20,471 bases of DNA from a virus, in the IMG/VR virus record IMGVR_UViG_3300018424_000334, positions 1 through 20,471 of that record; one strand, given 5' to 3'. Under the pieces are notes generated by a model. The model was not told the DNA's origin. It was given only the letters and a program-made list of their open reading frames with translations, and searched no databases. A program made the translations under genes and the position numbers. Shown in pieces: positions 13,171-20,449 of the stretch; the stretch's first letter is position 1; each line of letters opens with the position of its first letter.

Positions 13171-13443
13171 TTAGTTTCTCCTTAGGTATGGACATGCTAA
13201 CATAAAGTATGTTAGTTCTTTTTGTTCTTCAAACCCCACAAACGTGGATGTATGAAATTTATTTTCCTCGTTAACAGAAGGATAAGTCACAATGCAATAT
13301 CGTCCTGTTAGTTTAGATTTAATCCAATCAATAATGTTTTGATCAGCCCTTTCGCTATTTCCAATTTTAATTTTTGAAAAATGCGGAGGCATGGTTTTTA
13401 GTTGTCTTGAATTCAAAACGTCAAGTGGATTAAGTTCTATCAT
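13171..13443 (-). CDS. Small phage protein, unknown function, directly behind a late promoter
   Basis: This 90-residue protein starts at ATG 13443. It has short basic and hydrophobic stretches (IIDWIKSKLTGRYCIVTYPS, then TYFMLACPYLRRN) that suggest a small alpha/beta domain. No motif is recognised. The late box TATAAATA ends five bases before the ATG, which puts the expected first base of the late transcript on the A of the start codon. No leader or ribosome site would then exist. Either the message is leaderless or translation begins further in, for example at residue 18 (MPPHF), though no ribosome site is seen there either. Transcripts from upstream genes could also supply it. Confidence 0.75.
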   Translation of the reverse strand: MIELNPLDVLNSRQLKTMPPHFSKIKIGNSERADQNIIDWIKSKLTGRYCIVTYPSVNEENKFHTSTFVGFEEQKELTYFMLACPYLRRN

Positions 13444-13870: not shown

Positions 13871-14152
13871 CTATTCTTTATCTCCGGTAGTAAGTCTGTA
13901 CACTGAAAAATCAGTTGTATTAAAGAGTTTGTTAAGTTTCTTGGCTAAGTTTCTAGCATGTCCTGGATTTGAAAATGAGACCTTCTTATATTTAGGACCA
14001 GGATAACTAGCAACAGCACTTCCGCTTTTTAGATTGAAAGGTTTGTTCTGATAAAACACTGCCCAAATGGCTTCGCTCTCGAGAATCTGTTCTACTTTAT
14101 ATGTTTCTCGATTAGTATGTTCGAGAATTATTGTTGGTTTTGGTCTACTCAT
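13871..14152 (-). CDS. Small phage protein, unknown function, behind a late promoter and hairpin
   Basis: This 93-residue protein starts MSRPKPTIILEHTNRETYKV. It continues with AIWAVFYQNKPFNLK and SYPGPKYKKVSFSNPGHARN, an alternation of strands with basic loops, and ends in a short acidic tail. I recall the SYPGPKYKKVSF block from marine T4-like phages, with no function. The start codon lies at the edge of a perfect 11-base inverted repeat, and a late promoter overlaps the other arm, so expression is probably late only. AGGA lies 11 bases before the ATG, in the loop. No enzyme motif is seen. Confidence 0.8.
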   Translation of the reverse strand: MSRPKPTIILEHTNRETYKVEQILESEAIWAVFYQNKPFNLKSGSAVASYPGPKYKKVSFSNPGHARNLAKKLNKLFNTTDFSVYRLTTGDKE

Positions 14153-14185
14153 ATATACGTAATTCCTAGTTAACTACGTATATAT
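14151..14185 (-). promoter_or_regulatory. Inverted repeat over the start codon, probable early-off/late-on translation switch
   Basis: The arms at 14151-14161 and 14175-14185 are perfect 11-base complements with a 13-base loop. In minus-strand RNA the 3' arm includes the first two bases of the AUG at 14152, and the loop holds AGGA. The late promoter at 14183-14190 should start transcripts near 14177, removing most of the 5' arm. Read-through RNA would fold and hide the start codon; late RNA would not. T4 genes e, soc and 49 use this design. Confidence 0.6.
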
Positions 14186-14190
14186 TTATC
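14183..14190 (-). promoter_or_regulatory. T4-type late promoter (GATAAATA)
   Basis: Read on the minus strand this is GATAAATA, in the 43-base gap before the gene starting at 14152. The expected start of transcription is about 14177, giving a leader of roughly 25 bases that keeps the AGGA ribosome site. It overlaps the right arm of the inverted repeat. Confidence 0.7.
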
Positions 14191-14195
14191 CTTTT

Positions 14196-14444
14196 TTAAA
14201 AGGAACCTCCATCAAACTTTACATCAACTTCAGTACTAGACTTCTGTAATTCCTTTAGAAGTGCGTGTATTTCGCCTATAGTGCTGCCTAGTTTTGTTGT
14301 AAGCAGTGATAATTCTGTTGTAAGATCACGTGCTTCTTGTATTGTAATTCTAACTTCTTTTTGTTGTGATCTTTCCGCAACAGCAATGCGCTGTAGTAGT
14401 TTTTCAACAGTTGCTAAATTTGCAGGGACGTTATTTTGAGACAC
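14196..14444 (-). CDS. Small helical phage protein, unknown function
   Basis: This 82-residue protein begins at GTG (14442-14444), overlapping the previous gene by 14 bases. Residues 10-72 have Leu, Ile and Val at helical spacing (LATVEKLLQRIAVAE, then LTTELSLLTTKLGSTIGEIH), so a coiled coil is likely. The end is acidic with DVKFDGGSF. No signal peptide or catalytic residues are seen. In T4 the rnh gene is followed by small late-transcription genes (dsbA, 33). This gene holds a nearby slot, but I see no sequence likeness and do not assign that role. The ribosome site is weak, suggesting coupled translation. Confidence 0.75.
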   Translation of the reverse strand: MSQNNVPANLATVEKLLQRIAVAERSQQKEVRITIQEARDLTTELSLLTTKLGSTIGEIHALLKELQKSSTEVDVKFDGGSF

Positions 14445-14907
14445 TTGACAATACCTGTTTCATTTCTAGTTCAGTCTTAAAAGGACCACGATATTCATAA
14501 CGCTGTAGAGTAATTAATTTAGGACAGAAACTCTTTACCCAGCCCTTTTCAAATCTAATTGTGTAGTAACCTGCGCAGTACAAACTCTTTGAATCCTTAC
14601 TCTTTGTAAAAAGTGGAAGTTTCTTCTGTATATCATACATTGCATTATGAGGAATAGTACTTGATGCAAATCCATGTACTTCCTTAGGATTAGAATTATC
14701 CGCTTCCTTGATAATTTTAGCAACGAAAAAATCATTTCCAAATTGTTCAGTAAGATTTTTCTTGGTATTGAATATTGTAATTCCTTCTTCATTGCTTAAA
14801 ATAAATTTATTTTCTTCATTTTTTCTTAGTGTTGCAACTCTCACACCGTCATTTTCAACGATCCAAAATTTATTATCAATAATAGGTTTCGCTTGAATTG
14901 ATGCCAT
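14431..14907 (-). CDS. Conserved-type phage protein, unknown function
   Basis: The N-terminal half of this 158-residue protein is beta-rich (FWIVENDGVRVATLRKNEEN, then NDFFVAKIIKEA). The C-terminal half, KEVHGFASSTIPHNAMYDIQ followed by KKLPLFTKSKDSKSLYCAGYYTIRF and FCPKLITLQRYEYRGPF, contains a run of aromatic and basic residues that I recall as conserved in cyanophage proteins. It starts at ATG 14907 with GGAGGT five bases before it, inside the last codons of the nuclease gene. One base separates the two genes. It may bind nucleic acid, given its basic and aromatic surface and its neighbour, but that is inference. Confidence 0.8.
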   Translation of the reverse strand: MASIQAKPIIDNKFWIVENDGVRVATLRKNEENKFILSNEEGITIFNTKKNLTEQFGNDFFVAKIIKEADNSNPKEVHGFASSTIPHNAMYDIQKKLPLFTKSKDSKSLYCAGYYTIRFEKGWVKSFCPKLITLQRYEYRGPFKTELEMKQVLSSVSK

Positions 14908-14908
14908 A

Positions 14909-15919
14909 TTAACCTCCTAGAACTTTTTCGACCGCATCGTCATATCTTGCATTTAGTGGCTCAGCATAAGCCTGTGCTTGATCTGATATTTTCTTTAGAT
15001 CATAAAGATTGCAGAACTTCATTAGTCTAATACCAACTTGGCTTACATTCTTATTTGAGTTAGTTGCAGTTGAAACTGTTTCTTTAATGATATTCTTAAT
15101 GTCGTCTGGTTGATGCTTAAGATCAATCAATTGTCGATTTCTTTCATAATCTTCTAGCACACGATGCTCTTTGCCCTCGTGATCAACCCAACGCTGTAAC
15201 ATTAAGTTATTCCAATTAAATCCTTTTGTTTGCCTATCGGCAAACGCCTCAGACAAACCTACCTTGTTCTTAGTGCCTTTCTTACGAACACCTGGATATG
15301 CGCTGAACACGTTATCGCTTGTGTCACCACGCATACATTTTTCAAACAATAGCCACTCTGGATCAGGAGCAGGCTTTGGTTGCTTAGTTTTTTTGTCTAT
15401 CACAGGAAGTCCTTTCTTGTCAAAGAATCCTTCGTGTGTAGTTGTCACTTCTTGTACACCATTATATAATTTTACATTAGGTGCAATTAACTGTTGGAAA
15501 TCGGTATCTGTACTAATAACAACATGTTCTGTATCTGGATGTTGTTGAATCCATCCAGCAATTAAATCATCTGCTTCAAGTTGTGGGTGTTGTAATACAG
15601 TACAGTTTGTTTTATCTGTAACAAATTCTTTGAATGTGTCAAATGCTTCCCAAAATACTGTTTCTTCTTCCTGTTGTTTCTCATTTAGAGCAGCACGAGC
15701 ATCACTTCTGTTACGCTTGTAAGGCTCGTAGTAGTCTTTACGCCAACTACGTCCTTCTAAACAGAACACAACATGAGTGCCGTTAAAGTCCTGCCATGCC
15801 TTCTTAATGCTGTTTAGTGTGATATGGAACGCCATACCTAACTTAATATCAGCATCTCCATTGATTACATGCCTCGCTCTAAAGAACGTGTTCGCAGTAT
15901 CTACTATTATATGACACAT
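14909..15919 (-). CDS. rnh: 5'-3' exonuclease / RNase H (T4 rnh-type, FEN-like)
   Basis: This 336-residue protein has the metal-binding acids of the flap endonuclease superfamily. They are IVDTANTFFRARH with D7, a basic RKDYYEPYKRNRSD arch (60-73), LEADDLIAGW (E115, D117, D118), ISTDTDFQQL (D138, D140) and GDTSDN (198-203) before the helix-hairpin-helix region. The T4 homologue removes RNA primers from lagging-strand fragments and trims flaps. The length is slightly above the 305 residues of T4. I chose the ATG at 15919; another ATG at 15928 adds three residues (MNK), and AGAGA lies awkwardly for either. The start is one base after the upstream stop. The gene after it has its ribosome site inside the last codons of this one. 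Confidence 0.9.
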   Translation of the reverse strand: MCHIIVDTANTFFRARHVINGDADIKLGMAFHITLNSIKKAWQDFNGTHVVFCLEGRSWRKDYYEPYKRNRSDARAALNEKQQEEETVFWEAFDTFKEFVTDKTNCTVLQHPQLEADDLIAGWIQQHPDTEHVVISTDTDFQQLIAPNVKLYNGVQEVTTTHEGFFDKKGLPVIDKKTKQPKPAPDPEWLLFEKCMRGDTSDNVFSAYPGVRKKGTKNKVGLSEAFADRQTKGFNWNNLMLQRWVDHEGKEHRVLEDYERNRQLIDLKHQPDDIKNIIKETVSTATNSNKNVSQVGIRLMKFCNLYDLKKISDQAQAYAEPLNARYDDAVEKVLGG

Positions 15920-15920
15920 T

Positions 15921-16271
15921 TTATTCATTATCTCTTTTAACAGCACTAGCATCAATAGAGCCAGTGTCTAGTGGTCCTCCATAGTCACCATCGACTACAA
16001 CGTTTGCACAAAGTTCACGGAACCAACGATCAACAATTTCTTCATCCTTGTCACCTTCTACACCGTATCCTTCATTTCTTAATTGTACTATGAAATACTC
16101 GTTCCAGTCAAGTTCAAAGAATCCATTTCGGACATTTTCTTTGTTAACATGAGTATTCAAAACACTTATCCAAGGTTCCTTCTTCATGGTAGCCTTTTCC
16201 TTGTCTGTAAGACCTGGCTTAGATGTGTCTGGTTCCTTGTTCTTTTTAAACAACTTCTTAATAAAGTCCAT
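15921..16271 (-). CDS. Small acidic phage protein, unknown function, upstream of rnh
   Basis: This 116-residue protein starts at ATG 16271, after AGGGA at a good distance. A longer frame reaches back into queE but has no support. Residues 1-35 are Lys-rich. The middle, KEPWISVLNTHVNKENVRNG with FFELDWNEYFIVQLRNEGYG after it, and EIVDRWFRELCANV form what looks like a helical, acidic domain. I recall this block from cyanophage genomes, next to the nuclease. No enzymatic motif is seen. It is ten bases after queE and one base before the chosen start of the nuclease gene. The function is unknown. Confidence 0.8.
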   Translation of the reverse strand: MDFIKKLFKKNKEPDTSKPGLTDKEKATMKKEPWISVLNTHVNKENVRNGFFELDWNEYFIVQLRNEGYGVEGDKDEEIVDRWFRELCANVVVDGDYGGPLDTGSIDASAVKRDNE

Positions 16272-16281
16272 ATTGTTTTCC

Positions 16282-17202
16282 CTATGTTCCGATAGCATTA
16301 CCAAACAAGTATACATGCACTCTTGCAGCCACATTGTATCCCCTTTGGAAAGCCATCTTAGCAACAGAACCGGCTGTTGCAGTTTGCTCTTCTTCTCTAG
16401 CACCAACAGGCATTACCCAAATCGGATAATCTATTCCTTGTGCCTTAAATTGTGAGATTACTTGTTCCATTTCATCCCACTGTTGTTGTTCGGAACCAAC
16501 AACAAATTTTAGTTGTCCTCTGTTACTTAAATTTCTATATTCTGCTACCACTTCAGGCTTAATTGCTTTCTTTGCAGTTTCACCTGCTACACTCCATAGT
16601 TTAGGACTTACACTAAAGAATAGTTCGACATCCTTAGTAATTTCGTTATCAACATACCAGAATTCTTTAAACTCCTGTGTAAGTTCTTGTGTGCCATTAG
16701 TTTCAAATGTAACACTAGCAGGCATGTTGTTTAATCTTTTAAATTCTGTCATGATACCAATGAATGCTTCTTGACCATGTTTCATTAGAGGCTCACCACC
16801 CGTAACACAGAAATGTTGTCTCTGTCCTGTAACGGGATGTAAAAATTTACCCTCTGGATTGGAATCTGTCTTTAATATATTAATAATATCATGTGCAAGT
16901 TCAACAGCAGTTTTCTGACCCATTAAGTGTTTAAACTTCTTGCTCCAAGTATAACTGCTATCACAACCTTTTTCCCATACAGGCAAGTCTTCAACTCTTT
17001 TAACTTGGCTCACATCATAATCTTCGAATGGTAAATCATATGTGTCCGGATTCGTAGGATCAACCTGACCAAAACCGTTACACTGTAGATTACATAGGAA
17101 GAAACGTATCCACGCAGTGGGCACGCCTGTATAATGTCCTTCACCCTGTATGCTGTGAAAGATTTCGCTATAGTAGTATTTCTTGTCAGTTGCTATTGTC
17201 AT
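16282..17202 (-). CDS. queE: QueE-like 7-carboxy-7-deazaguanine synthase (radical SAM)
   Basis: This 306-residue protein makes, by family, 7-carboxy-7-deazaguanine from 6-carboxytetrahydropterin on the path to preQ0, queuosine or deazaguanine DNA bases. The visible signatures are YYSEIFHSIQGEGHYTGVPT (10-29), WIRFFLCNLQC (31-41), FCVTGGEPLM (131-140), FETNGTQEL and VSPKLWSVAG. The cluster motif is altered: C37 and C41 are followed by a 38-residue insert before C80 (GCDSSYTW), where a standard enzyme has CX2C. Phage and some bacterial QueE have extended loops here, so it may still bind a cluster. The start at ATG 17202 overlaps the previous gene by 17 bases. A perfect sigma-70 promoter ends seven bases before it. 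No queC, queD, folE or dpdA is in the window. Confidence 0.86.
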   Translation of the reverse strand: MTIATDKKYYYSEIFHSIQGEGHYTGVPTAWIRFFLCNLQCNGFGQVDPTNPDTYDLPFEDYDVSQVKRVEDLPVWEKGCDSSYTWSKKFKHLMGQKTAVELAHDIINILKTDSNPEGKFLHPVTGQRQHFCVTGGEPLMKHGQEAFIGIMTEFKRLNNMPASVTFETNGTQELTQEFKEFWYVDNEITKDVELFFSVSPKLWSVAGETAKKAIKPEVVAEYRNLSNRGQLKFVVGSEQQQWDEMEQVISQFKAQGIDYPIWVMPVGAREEEQTATAGSVAKMAFQRGYNVAARVHVYLFGNAIGT

Positions 17203-17392
17203 TGTCTTTATTATACGCTTTCTCTTGATGATTGTCAACCTTTTTAGACAGCGAAAATGTGCCATTAAAGTTGTCAGTCCAAACCAAATCGTCACCTATA
17301 TCCCAGCCCATTTGGTTCAATAATTCTGTGGGTAGAGGAAGAACCAAATCACCAGTATCCGGATCTTCCTCAACTTTTACGGTAAGTTCCAA
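17186..17392 (-). CDS. AbrB/MazE-like small protein
   Basis: This 68-residue protein starts at TTG (17390-17392), with TAAGGAG (the stop of the gene before, plus its own ribosome site) six bases upstream. Residues 8-50 read DPDTGDLVLPLPTELLNQMG then WDIGDDLVWTDNFNGTFSLS. This is the swapped-hairpin pattern of AbrB/SpoVT/MazE DNA-binding domains: strand, Pro, helix, Gly-Asp turn, strand. The C-terminal tail is Asn/Asp/Lys-rich. Proteins of this type bind DNA as dimers. A regulatory role is possible but unproven, and it could be a structural relative without DNA binding. The promoter of queE lies inside the end of this gene. Confidence 0.7.
   Translation of the reverse strand: MELTVKVEEDPDTGDLVLPLPTELLNQMGWDIGDDLVWTDNFNGTFSLSKKVDNHQEKAYNKDNDNSN
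17210..17238 (-). promoter_or_regulatory. Perfect sigma-70 promoter, TTGACA-17-TATAAT
   Basis: On the minus strand TTGACA (17238-17233) is followed by 17 bases and TATAAT (17215-17210), a 12 of 12 match with ideal spacing. The expected start is near 17203, one base before the queE ATG. It lies inside the end of the AbrB-like gene. It is probably an early promoter read by unmodified host RNA polymerase, driving queE and the genes after it. Confidence 0.8.
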
Positions 17393-17402
17393 AGTAATCT
17401 CC

Positions 17403-17609
17403 TTAGAAATATTTCTTCAAAACTTCAATTTCGTCATGATATTTTGCAATGATATCCAACTCTTTTTCAATCGCTTCCAAAATGTCTGGATGTTCTCCAA
17501 TCCCTGCCGGATTGTTAAGATACACTTCAACATTCATCTTGTGCTTTTGAATATGGCCTTCTGCGTGTGATACTAATGCTTTTATCATTTCATCTCTATT
17601 AATTGCCAT
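17403..17609 (-). CDS. Small phage protein, unknown (SHAEGHI type)
   Basis: This 68-residue protein reads REEMIKALVSHAEGHI-like in form (RDEMIKALVSHAEGHIQKHK, then NVEVYLNNPAGIGEHPDI) and ends in a Glu- and Lys-rich helix. It is almost wholly helical and probably dimeric. I recall near relatives in many cyanophages, with no assigned role. The two His in SHAEGHIQKH could bind metal, which is speculation. It starts at ATG 17609 after AAGGAGAG, a strong ribosome site, and overlaps the HIT gene by 11 bases. Its stop TAA is part of the next ribosome site. Confidence 0.82.
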   Translation of the reverse strand: MAINRDEMIKALVSHAEGHIQKHKMNVEVYLNNPAGIGEHPDILEAIEKELDIIAKYHDEIEVLKKYF

Positions 17610-17964
17610 TCTTCTCTCCTTTTCTATAGTTTCCCTTTTCGGGTATCACGTGGCGAACACCGCCTCGTGGATCTTCCATGTCGCCGTTTCGGCGAGGAAT
17701 TAAGTGAACGTGCGGCCACATGACTGTCTGTCCTGCGGCTTCGCCGATGTTCTGCCCTAAGTTATAGGCATCACAGTATCCTTTCTGAACCCAATCATAC
17801 CCCCAAGCATATGCTGCCTTGTAACAGGCCGCCAACTTATCCCAGGTTTCTTCCTTGGGCACGAAAAGAATGTGTCCTTCCGTTACCGGAAAGCCATCCT
17901 TGAACACGGTAAAATCTCTAGTGTCTATTAACACATCCTTCCAGGGGATATCCTTAAACTCCAT
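17599..17964 (-). CDS. HIT-family protein with an altered His triad
   Basis: HIT proteins hydrolyse or transfer nucleotide phosphoramidates and dinucleotide polyphosphates. In this 121-residue protein, GHILFVPKEE (30-39) and NIGEAAGQT (72-80) lead into VMWPHVHLIPRRNGD. Aligned with the usual Q-x-V-x-H-x-H-x-H-x-IPRR, the first His is Trp83, while His85 (the nucleophile position) and His87 are kept. Activity is therefore plausible but the site is unusual. The length is typical for the family. The start is the ATG of a TAATG overlap with the previous gene. The 3' end overlaps a small gene by 11 bases. The substrate is unknown; in a phage it might clean up nucleotide metabolites. Confidence 0.85.
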   Translation of the reverse strand: MEFKDIPWKDVLIDTRDFTVFKDGFPVTEGHILFVPKEETWDKLAACYKAAYAWGYDWVQKGYCDAYNLGQNIGEAAGQTVMWPHVHLIPRRNGDMEDPRGGVRHVIPEKGNYRKGEKNGN

Positions 17965-18287
17965 TATTCTTCTTCGCTTTCTTCAATGTGCTCTTGGAAT
18001 TCTTCTTCGCCATACCAGCATTTAAAATCAACAGCCCATTCGTCATCCTCTTTTGCATACTTCCAAATTGCATTTTGTTGGTCCACAGGAAGTGCGTGAA
18101 ATGCTGCTCTGAAGTAACCAGCCTGTTCATCGGATGCTTCTACTCGCATTTCCTCGGCACGAGTCCAATCCTCTTCATCATCACTCTCACTTAGTTCGTC
18201 AGCCTCTACCCATGTATCCCATGCGGATGAATGCGCATCTTCATTTAAATCACTGATAATATCGTATGCTTCTTCTTTGGTAATCAT
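17964..18287 (-). CDS. Small highly acidic protein, unknown function
   Basis: This 107-residue protein has more than a third Asp and Glu. Residues 25-55 (WVEADELSESDDEEDWTRAE) and the tail EEEFQEHIEESEEE are strikingly acidic. The middle, FHALPVDQQNAIWKYAKEDD, is probably helical. Acidic small phage proteins often mimic DNA or bind and block basic host proteins, but nothing here proves that. It starts in a TAATG overlap, after GAGGGGG. The stop overlaps the HIT start the same way. No family is recognised. Confidence 0.8.
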   Translation of the reverse strand: MITKEEAYDIISDLNEDAHSSAWDTWVEADELSESDDEEDWTRAEEMRVEASDEQAGYFRAAFHALPVDQQNAIWKYAKEDDEWAVDFKCWYGEEEFQEHIEESEEE

Positions 18288-18517
18288 TAATACCCCCTCA
18301 GTCTGTTTACTTGGTATATTTTGGGACCTGGTGTAGTAAATTCAAATCCCATCTTGTTTCCCACATATACCTTACCATTGTATTGCATATGAATTTTATT
18401 GCCTGCTAAAAAAATATCTAAAAATTGTTTATCGTTGAATCTATCAACTTCCGCTTCTGCTACCTTGTCATTGTCAGTGCAGGTTACGGTGCAGGTCTTA
18501 TCGTATTCTGTTGCCAT
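18287..18517 (-). CDS. Small phage protein, unknown function
   Basis: This 76-residue protein starts at ATG 18517, in a TAATG overlap with the phosphoribosyltransferase stop and with GGGAG upstream. A longer frame to 18562 runs back into that gene and is not supported. The residues FNDKQFLDIFLAGNKIHMQY and GKVYVGNKMGFEFTTPGPK suggest an all-beta small domain; I recall a similar block in cyanophage proteins. The N-terminal half has two Cys (TCTVTCTD). The function is unknown. Confidence 0.8.
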   Translation of the reverse strand: MATEYDKTCTVTCTDNDKVAEAEVDRFNDKQFLDIFLAGNKIHMQYNGKVYVGNKMGFEFTTPGPKIYQVNRLRGY

Positions 18518-19080
18518 TAAAATCTCCCTGTTGATACATTTTCCCAAGGATAAACCAACCAACAGTCTTCCTCAGCCTTGTTAACTTCATCACAGTGGTA
18601 TGACACTCCGTCAAATTCGCTTGATAAGTTTTCTGTTAATACTGCGAACCGAACGTTGTCACCCCAAATTTGATCCCATACAGGAGAATGAGGTAAACAA
18701 CTGCTCTTCCAATCTTCCTTGATCCAATTAAATGTGGCACCGGTATCGTTAATATCATCTACAATTAGAATGTTTTTACCCAATGGTTTATTTTTAAAGA
18801 ATCCCATCTCTGGAGCATATGAACCGTGTTCATCGTAGCCGTAGGCATCTTCACTCATCCAAGCATTACTTTCTAAATGACTATCACCATCACGTAATGC
18901 TACCTTAAGTGCTTCGCAACGAATACCTGTCATGTTTGAAATGATTGTAGCAGGAACATTGCCACCGCGTGTGATGCCAACGATGTAGTCTGGTTTCCAA
19001 TTGTCCTTGTACATTTGTGTGACTATATTTACACACATTTTTTCCACGTCCTGCCACGTGTAATAAACTTTTTTAACCAT
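18517..19080 (-). CDS. Phosphoribosyltransferase-like protein
   Basis: The PRPP-binding loop ILIVDDINDTGATF (104-117) of this 187-residue protein is the type I phosphoribosyltransferase signature, and IVGITRGGNVPA (33-44) is the pyrophosphate loop. Such enzymes join a base to PRPP to make a nucleotide. In a phage this would salvage purines (xanthine/guanine type) for DNA synthesis, but the base-binding hood is not clear enough to name one. I start at ATG 19080 after GGAGA, because the longer frame lies in the previous gene. It overlaps that gene by 8 bases and the next by 1 base in TAATG. It may also be a diverged regulator without catalysis. Confidence 0.85.
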   Translation of the reverse strand: MVKKVYYTWQDVEKMCVNIVTQMYKDNWKPDYIVGITRGGNVPATIISNMTGIRCEALKVALRDGDSHLESNAWMSEDAYGYDEHGSYAPEMGFFKNKPLGKNILIVDDINDTGATFNWIKEDWKSSCLPHSPVWDQIWGDNVRFAVLTENLSSEFDGVSYHCDEVNKAEEDCWLVYPWENVSTGRF

Positions 19081-19390
19081 TTTGTTTCTCCAGACTAAAC
19101 TCAACTTGCTTAACATTTGCCCAAAGAAAACTTCTCCAACCCTTGGCGTTCACATCATAAACAGCCAATGATGTAGGAACCTTTTCAAACTCTAATTCCA
19201 GTTGATTAGTATCCACTTGAGTCTTTGGATGAAACTCTTCCGGTATTAGACTAAAGTTAAGAGTGGAGGTCATCTTTCTTTCCTCACCGTCCTTCTTGGT
19301 AAAGGTAACAACAACTTCTCTTTCTTTCAAAAGTCCTAGTAACCAATCTCGCCCCTCAGGCGTATCTATTTCATTTTTAATGTTTTCCAC
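19073..19390 (-). CDS. DUF2693-like SH3 beta-barrel protein
   Basis: This 105-residue protein starts at GTG (19388-19390), with GAGGAG seven bases before it. The pattern LLKEREVVVTFTKKDGEERK MTSTL, then SLAVYDVNAKGWRSFLWANV is that of the small phage family described as an SH3 beta-barrel fold (DUF2693 type), in which a WRSF- or WRSFR-like end is usual. The role is unknown, but such proteins are common in phage DNA-metabolism regions. It overlaps the cupin-like gene by 14 bases and the phosphoribosyltransferase by 8 bases. Confidence 0.78.
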   Translation of the reverse strand: MENIKNEIDTPEGRDWLLGLLKEREVVVTFTKKDGEERKMTSTLNFSLIPEEFHPKTQVDTNQLELEFEKVPTSLAVYDVNAKGWRSFLWANVKQVEFSLEKQNG

Positions 19391-19871
19391 TTAAATACTC
19401 CTCATTATGTACCCACTTGTAACCACGTTCTTCCATCGTCTTACCACCATGCCAAGGAAGGAATCCCCATTCTTTAGTTTTTCTACCCATGAAGAACAAA
19501 CTCCAGCAAGGAATCTCATTTCCTGCTTCGTCCTTCTCCAGTTCAAGCCAGTGTAAATCTTCTGCTGATCTAATACGGAAGTGTCCCGGACCTCTCCATA
19601 CTTTAGTAGAACCTACAACACCTCCTGTTGTGCTGTTGGTTAATGGAATGTGTTCCCAATAACCGCCCTTAAGAATTAGAGTTGCATACCCCCATGGATG
19701 ATCATGTAGTGTGGGTTCGTCACTTACAAGAACTTTGTGTAGTGTGATATTAAAAGGAAAGTTCTTGCGTTCCTTTAAAAATAGATAATAACGGATGAGG
19801 TAAGGTACCTTTCCGTCTCTATCATATATAATTCTCTTCCTATCCAGTTTCTCAAGCAGTTTCAGTAACAT
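19377..19871 (-). CDS. Cupin-like phage protein
   Basis: This 164-residue protein reads NITLHKVLVSDEPTLHDHPW (41-60), a double His (H56, H58) as in cupin metal sites, followed by GYATLILKGGYWEHI. Then RGPGHFRIRSAEDLHWLEL holds a further His (H107). The C-terminal CWSLFFMGRKTKEWGFLPW is Trp-rich. Cupin-fold proteins are dioxygenases, isomerases or sugar-binding proteins; the family here is not fixed. The ribosome site GAGG is five bases from the ATG. It overlaps the glycosylase gene by 20 bases. No signal peptide is seen. The metal ligands are likely but the activity is unknown. Confidence 0.75.
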   Translation of the reverse strand: MLLKLLEKLDRKRIIYDRDGKVPYLIRYYLFLKERKNFPFNITLHKVLVSDEPTLHDHPWGYATLILKGGYWEHIPLTNSTTGGVVGSTKVWRGPGHFRIRSAEDLHWLELEKDEAGNEIPCWSLFFMGRKTKEWGFLPWHGGKTMEERGYKWVHNEEYLSGKH

Positions 19872-20286
19872 CTATGCCTCTTTCTTTTAGATAGCGTTTC
19901 AGTTCCTTGTCAGTTGGCTGAACACTATAGTTTTGTTTGAAAAATATTTCATAACTATCAGAACCATATTTTCCAATACCATATAACATAGTAGCATCAT
20001 TTCCATCCCATGTCAAGTAGTCTTTTGACATGTTACGCAAGGCTTTTTCACGCCTATTATAAAAGCCCAATTCTCTTATAACGTCTATTACTTCTTCTGT
20101 GGTGCTCTTAAGGAATTTTTTGGGTGTATTCCATTTTGATAGAAAGTTTGGAAGCACCCTTTTTACCTGCACTCGATCCGTTTGGTTGAGCATTATAACT
20201 CCTACCATGTGTTGCCAGGAACCATCAATCTGTTCCTGTACCATTAGATCCTCAGAAAGGATTGTGCCAGGGCTGAACTTTTTCAT
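19852..20286 (-). CDS. MBD4-like HhH-GPD DNA glycosylase
   Basis: This 144-residue protein has the helix-hairpin-helix glycosylase core. GVIMLNQTDRVQVKRVLPNF (29-48) and IRELGFYNRREKAL (70-83) fit the N-terminal helices. LYGIGKYGSDSYEIF (101-115) is the hairpin with the catalytic Asp, D110, and is nearly the motif of vertebrate MBD4. The latter removes T or U from G mispairs. No 4Fe-4S cysteine cluster is present, as in MBD4. In a phage it may repair deaminated or modified bases, or act with deazaguanine changes. It starts at ATG 20286 after AAAGGAAA and overlaps the small gene before it by 35 bases. Catalytic residues are visible; the substrate is inferred. Confidence 0.86.
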   Translation of the reverse strand: MKKFSPGTILSEDLMVQEQIDGSWQHMVGVIMLNQTDRVQVKRVLPNFLSKWNTPKKFLKSTTEEVIDVIRELGFYNRREKALRNMSKDYLTWDGNDATMLYGIGKYGSDSYEIFFKQNYSVQPTDKELKRYLKERGIDVTETA

Positions 20287-20449
20287 AAATTTCCTTTACT
20301 CTCTTGTTGTATTCATCTTCATTAACAGCAAGATTATTTAGGTGCTGTCTCCAAATTCTTTTCATGTCTTCCGATAACTTTGGATTAGCAAGAATAAGTT
20401 TCAGTGCTTTACTACGCTTCTGCTGTAGTTCTTCCGAATAAGGTCCCAT
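20252..20449 (-). CDS. Small basic helical protein, unknown function
   Basis: This 65-residue protein starts at ATG 20449 with AAAGGAA six bases upstream. It is rich in Lys, Arg, Glu and Gln (SEELQQKRSKALKLILANPK, then KRIWRQHLNNLAVNEDEYNK) and probably two or three helices. The coding end overlaps the glycosylase start by 35 bases, a larger overlap than elsewhere, but the ribosome site supports it. It may bind nucleic acid. No family is recognised. Confidence 0.68.
   Translation of the reverse strand: MGPYSEELQQKRSKALKLILANPKLSEDMKRIWRQHLNNLAVNEDEYNKRVKEIYEKVQPWHNPF

Follow-up and report, generated by a model that had tools for sequence, protein, structure and literature searches.

A conserved start-codon hairpin overlapping a late promoter predicts a T4-like early-off, late-on switch in a 93-amino-acid phage gene

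At the start of a gene for a 93-amino-acid protein in a 20,471-nucleotide stretch of viral DNA (IMG/VR record IMGVR_UViG_3300018424_000334; hereafter the window), an inverted repeat meets both the start codon and a putative late promoter, which raises the question of whether the gene is kept silent early in infection and opened late. We consider an early-off, late-on translation switch of the type known from T4 genes e and 49 to be the probable answer, with a probability of roughly 0.85. Judged from its sequence, the site shares the features of the T4 e, soc and 49 hairpins, with a candidate late promoter just upstream and a predicted stem that would sequester the Shine-Dalgarno (SD) sequence and AUG. 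Under this mechanism, RNA from early or middle promoters far upstream would read through the site, carry both arms, and fold the AUG and the space between SD and AUG into the stem, leaving the gene untranslated. Late in infection, a gp55-type sigma factor would start RNA at GATAAATA, about 5 nt past the box. This point lies within the 5' arm, most of which would then be missing, leaving the gene's start open.

The minus-strand reading GGATAAATATATACGTAGTTAACTAGGAATTACGTATATATGAGT covers the late box, stem and ATG (Table 1). The 11-base perfect inverted repeat named in the original prediction is present, with 11 of 11 positions complementary and a 13-nt spacer; lengthened to 14 nt, the arms form 13 of 14 pairs as DNA and all 14 in RNA, with one G-U pair and a 7-nt loop. 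The AUG had been placed at one arm and a late promoter over the other, and both placements hold: the box overlaps the 5' arm by the arm's outermost 3 nt, and the 3' arm closes with the first two letters of the AUG, only the A and U of which are part of the stem because the ATG occupies 14152-14150 on the minus strand. An SD-like AGGA sits at the boundary of loop and stem. In T4 late promoters, roughly one helical turn separates the TATA box from the start downstream of it (PMC2988020). Because a T4-type start falls about 5 nt after the box, late transcription is predicted to begin within the 5' arm, of which 3-6 nt probably remain in the late RNA.

Table 1. Positions of the switch elements and flanking genes in the window
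Feature	Position	Strand	Basis
T4-type late promoter box GATAAATA	14183..14190	-	Sequence; ATAAATA in 116/116 distinct leaders; motif statistics; gp55-like sigma in related phages
Stem 5' arm ATATATACGTA, extending to 14172 with one G-U	14175..14185	-	Repeat search, RNA fold, covariation
Hairpin loop AACTAGG, holding part of the SD-like AGGA	14165..14171	-	RNA fold
Stem 3' arm TACGTATATAT, extending to 14164, ending in AU of the start codon	14151..14161	-	Repeat search, RNA fold
Region of the predicted late start (~14177), within the 5' arm	14176..14178	-	T4 spacing
93-amino-acid gene, ATG 14152-14150	13871..14152	-	ORF list; at least 597 relatives in viral contigs; 15 named jumbo phages
Same-strand upstream genes without ATAAATA on their own strand; presumed source of read-through RNA	14196..20449	-	ORF list

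The bare repeat is weak evidence. No other perfect inverted repeat in the whole window reaches 11 bp with a loop of 3-20 nt, but such a repeat is only modestly unusual, as 11 of 60 dinucleotide-shuffled windows (18%) contain at least one. The leader folds at -13.3 kcal/mol (z -4.4), with 1 of 200 shuffles as low. What makes the repeat significant is its placement at the promoter and AUG, together with covariation in relatives.

The late-promoter reading of the box is backed by motif statistics and by gp55-like sigma genes. Across six related contigs, ATAAATA occurs 106 times versus 170-385 times for its anagrams, and 53 of the 106 stand 15-80 nt upstream of a gene start versus 4-22% for the anagrams; among intergenic 9-mer cores, it ranks first in enrichment. 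Of 13 related records, 10 encode a gp55-like late sigma factor (phrog_234), with Paride, Atu_ph07, Phosso and SCTP-2 among them; this set lies apart from the 20-kb record of the window. Marine T4-like cyanophages have NATAAATA as their published late promoter (PMC2984593); these late promoters, from S-PM2 and other phages with g55, carry the same motif, and unlike for the window, the available text of that report describes no hairpin switch for them.

The upstream genes share the strand of the 93-amino-acid gene and end 6 nt before the box (14196 versus 14190), which leaves no room for a terminator between them. Minus-strand ATAAATA occurs only twice in the window, at 14189 and 13455, and over 8 kb upstream in relatives its sense frequency is 0-0.05 per kb, compared to 1.05 at the gene. 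The upstream products (an HhH-GPD repair protein, a phosphoribosyltransferase, a HIT protein and a 5'-3' exonuclease) suit an early or middle unit, and we infer that transcripts of this unit run on across the hairpin.

We then folded both RNA forms, as the original prediction had proposed, and obtained the expected contrast. The opening cost, defined as the energy needed to open positions -16 to +6 in the long read-through RNA versus the late RNA, is 14.5 kcal/mol versus 4.1 kcal/mol in the window, close to the values that the same script gave for T4 e (14.2/1.6), 49 (17.8/3.8) and I-TevII (13.3/0.5). Median early and late costs were 11.1 and 3.5 in 120 relatives, compared to 5.7 and 3.5 for 46 other late promoters on the same contigs, where other late leaders are mostly unstructured. 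The early/late difference falls below 2 kcal/mol in about 6% of relatives, and the measure is imperfect because the contrast is small for T4 soc (9.8/8.0), an established example. The predicted release of the start codon in the window is large but incomplete, since a weak residual 6-bp stem may persist in the late RNA.

For comparative analysis, we searched viral contigs for relatives of the 93-amino-acid protein and obtained at least 597, of which 80 were kept; the collection was enlarged by a pattern scan and additional queries. The comparison covers 116 distinct leaders of the gene from uncultured phages. All 116 carry ATAAATA (preceded by G in 93), 23-35 nt from the ATG, and an SD-like motif is present in 128 late leaders, mostly at a spacing of 7-11 nt. 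Loss of pairing in relatives, named beforehand as an outcome that would speak against the switch, is not the general pattern: 112 of 116 leaders keep a stable stem, folding below -6 kcal/mol (the median is -10.2, with a median z of -3.75). Compensating changes, the other pattern sought in relatives, were found in both arms, with paired variants TACGTA/TACGTA, TACGTG/CACGTA, TGCGTA/TACGCA, CTACGCA/TGCGTAG and others. Swapping arms among 17 arm classes produced worse pairing, and 0 of 2000 permutations reached the real sum.

In the stem-fitted register, core pairs are formed in 97-100% of leaders, with exchanges A-U/G-C/G-U, C-G/U-A and G-C/A-U, and one A-U/G-C/G-U pair changed 17 times on the coding-sequence tree. 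The covariance-model alignment gave a covariation score of 0.311 versus 0.222 +/- 0.012 (sd) for shuffled data and 0.17 for the best slid register. A plain MAFFT alignment placed some 3' arms wrongly, and the register-based count and covariance-model alignment were therefore added. Both the fitted register and the covariance-model alignment favour structure, and the pair counts are thus partly biased; the argument is therefore carried by the swap control, which is independent of both.

The element is confined to this gene. The pattern scan returned 118 sites, 117 of them before the 93-amino-acid gene and the last before the same MSRPKP start at a contig end. We rejected the idea that the stem module is a general repeat, as the covariance model matches only leaders of this gene, and TACGTAGTT as a genome-wide motif was ruled out by counts. 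An Rfam search of the site gave no family at the gathering score, and a nucleotide search of phage records gave zero matches. As separate observations, the loop GTTAATTA in leaders L001-L080 is conserved beyond the needs of pairing and would form the 5' end of the late mRNA, and an extra copy of arm and loop, TRCGTAG.TAACT, follows the upstream stop codon and precedes the late box in many relatives, among them L378, L462, L463 and L496.

Some leaders without the common stem hide the same start in a non-homologous one (L065, L077, L377, L409 and L449), and two of the four leaders above the fold cut-off rebuild another stem with the same logic. The L065 stem joins GTTAACTCCT, which lies upstream of the box, to AGGAGTTAAC, which runs from the SD to -1; in L377, GGTCATAAAATT pairs with AATTTTATGGCC, which includes the AUG; in L409, whose box reads GTAAATA, CTCCGTAT pairs with ATACGGAG; and L077 and L449 have further stems, each unrelated. 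All replacement stems take in the SD or AUG, and each has its 5' side upstream of the predicted late start. When the 5' part alone was shuffled, occlusion was as strong in only 0-3 of 300 trials, with a weaker case in L431 (18 of 300). One lineage (L039/L041) keeps the box and has no clear stem. The stem is also absent from Paride, Phosso and SCTP-2; in Paride (L083) and Phosso (L082), a strong terminator-like hairpin stands directly upstream of the late box, where others have the occluding stem, and this hairpin could block early expression by stopping read-through. What is conserved, as far as the leaders indicate, is apparently the function, a start that would be hidden in long RNA and free in late RNA, rather than one sequence.

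These data also bear on other readings of the repeat. It might be a DNA operator, a dyad spanning the late promoter to which a repressor binds, possibly the protein that the gene itself encodes. The repeat does overlap the promoter, the 93-amino-acid protein is basic (pI 9.8), and I-TevI represses itself through an operator over its own late promoter (PMC2988022). However, the spacer between the arms ranges from 5 to 19 nt across relatives, too variable for a protein dyad, and the replacement stems are unrelated in sequence and position; because loop length varies and G-U pairs occur, the element is better read as RNA than as a protein-bound DNA dyad, and we consider an operator unlikely. The conservation of GTTAATTA beyond pairing would suit a translational enhancer or a RegA/gp43-like protein-dependent switch in which a phage protein binds the conserved loop GUUAAUUAGGA, but the arms flank the SD on both sides, which normally blocks loading, most of the 5' arm would be missing from the late RNA, and loops differ in the replacement stems. 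We regard this reading as very improbable.

Hairpins near a 5' end can stabilise RNA or be cut, and the stem could accordingly be an RNA processing or stability element, either an RNase site or a 5'-end protector, that leaves the start unoccluded. We assign this little credence, as the late RNA would be without the 5' arm and every replacement stem takes in the SD or AUG, which processing would not need. A chance hairpin in AT-rich DNA, or conservation of the promoter and ribosome binding site only, is compatible with the AT-rich arms and with the frequency of such repeats in shuffled windows; it is already refuted by the comparative data (compensating changes, the swap test and the median z), and the mostly unstructured state of other late leaders on the same contigs also opposes it, so that its probability is close to nil.

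The occlusion switch that we favour has clear precedents. Early-off, late-on hairpins of T4 are textbook cases, found in a few genes of close T4 relatives. In T4 gene 49, encoding endonuclease VII, the AATAAATA box is likewise the outer part of the 5' arm and the AUG adjoins the 3' arm, although gene and sequence differ from those of the window, and we know of no family-wide covariation test of that leader. T4 e, soc and 49, cited as known examples in the original prediction, are established together with I-TevI as genes with inhibitory start structures whose late promoters lie in or beside the 5' arm (PMC3014915). In T4 e, encoding lysozyme, late promoters are similarly within the region encoding the 5' strand, the long early RNA is silent, with about 100-fold less lysozyme, and the structure is kept only among close T4 relatives and absent in others (PMC3014915); that switch was demonstrated experimentally, whereas the window site is known by computation. 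Inhibitory start structures of the same kind occur in I-TevII, I-TevIII, segB and mobE, and in I-TevI, I-TevII, I-TevIII, segB and Aeh1 mobE the late promoter is likewise positioned so that late RNA is without the 5' arm (PMC2988022). Those genes encode homing endonucleases in mobile contexts, whereas the window gene is conserved and looks immobile. The mechanism is thus already known; the target gene, the breadth of conservation and the repeated replacement are the new parts.

The 93-amino-acid protein is present in 15 named jumbo phages, with carriers including PA5oct/Paride, Atu_ph07, Phosso and SCTP-2. Searches against Pfam, PHROGs and NCBIfam gave no family match, a PDB sequence-profile search gave none, and viral-library matches at E ~1e-8 are uncharacterised phage proteins. 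AlphaFold confidently models a small alpha/beta protein (pLDDT 90.9), for which comparison with solved structures gave no convincing relative (best Foldseek E 0.23; best Z 5.2, for a chain of the Orf2971-FtsHi complex and Tic22); these weak hits were not accepted as signs of kinship. The predicted late-only expression is the sole clue to the protein's function.

Here covariation traces the same logic through more than 100 distinct leaders of a gene that is widespread and uncharacterised, and where the stem has been lost, unrelated sequences restore that logic. The switch therefore appears to be an evolutionary requirement of this gene, and producing the protein early probably carries a cost. 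Tentatively, aquatic and jumbo phages may be under strong selection to silence it until late, by several unrelated routes (the co-varying stem, at least four unrelated stems and the Paride/Phosso terminator-like hairpin), the protein may be harmful early, and together with a second, unrelated gene family whose MRDL-type leader is described below it may form a small promoter-in-stem regulon. Cultured relatives offer test cases: Atu_ph07 is predicted to have the stem (opening cost 12.2/3.3), and Paride has the terminator-like hairpin in its place.

A second leader of the promoter-in-stem type, ATAAATATAGTAT[C/G]...GATACTATG, whose 3' arm contains the AUG, occurs outside the window in at least 120 viral contigs (L241, L247, L252, L219 and L255-L334 in our numbering). 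Of its 70 distinct forms, 55 precede proteins starting MRDL or MRDI and a few precede other genes; this leader appears to be a similar switch of independent origin. Within the window, a second late box, TATAAATA (13456-13449, minus strand), lies 5 nt before the ATG (13443) of a 90-amino-acid ORF (13171-13443), and about 55 relatives keep a spacing of 3-9 nt. With a T4-type start, the late mRNA there would have no leader or almost none, and the sequence upstream shows no SD. On the plus strand (302-337), a late box ATAAATA lies 35 nt before the ATG of a 116-amino-acid ORF (337-687). Its homologues in L239 and L251 are arranged in the same way, and their leaders are predicted to form structure in the long RNA.
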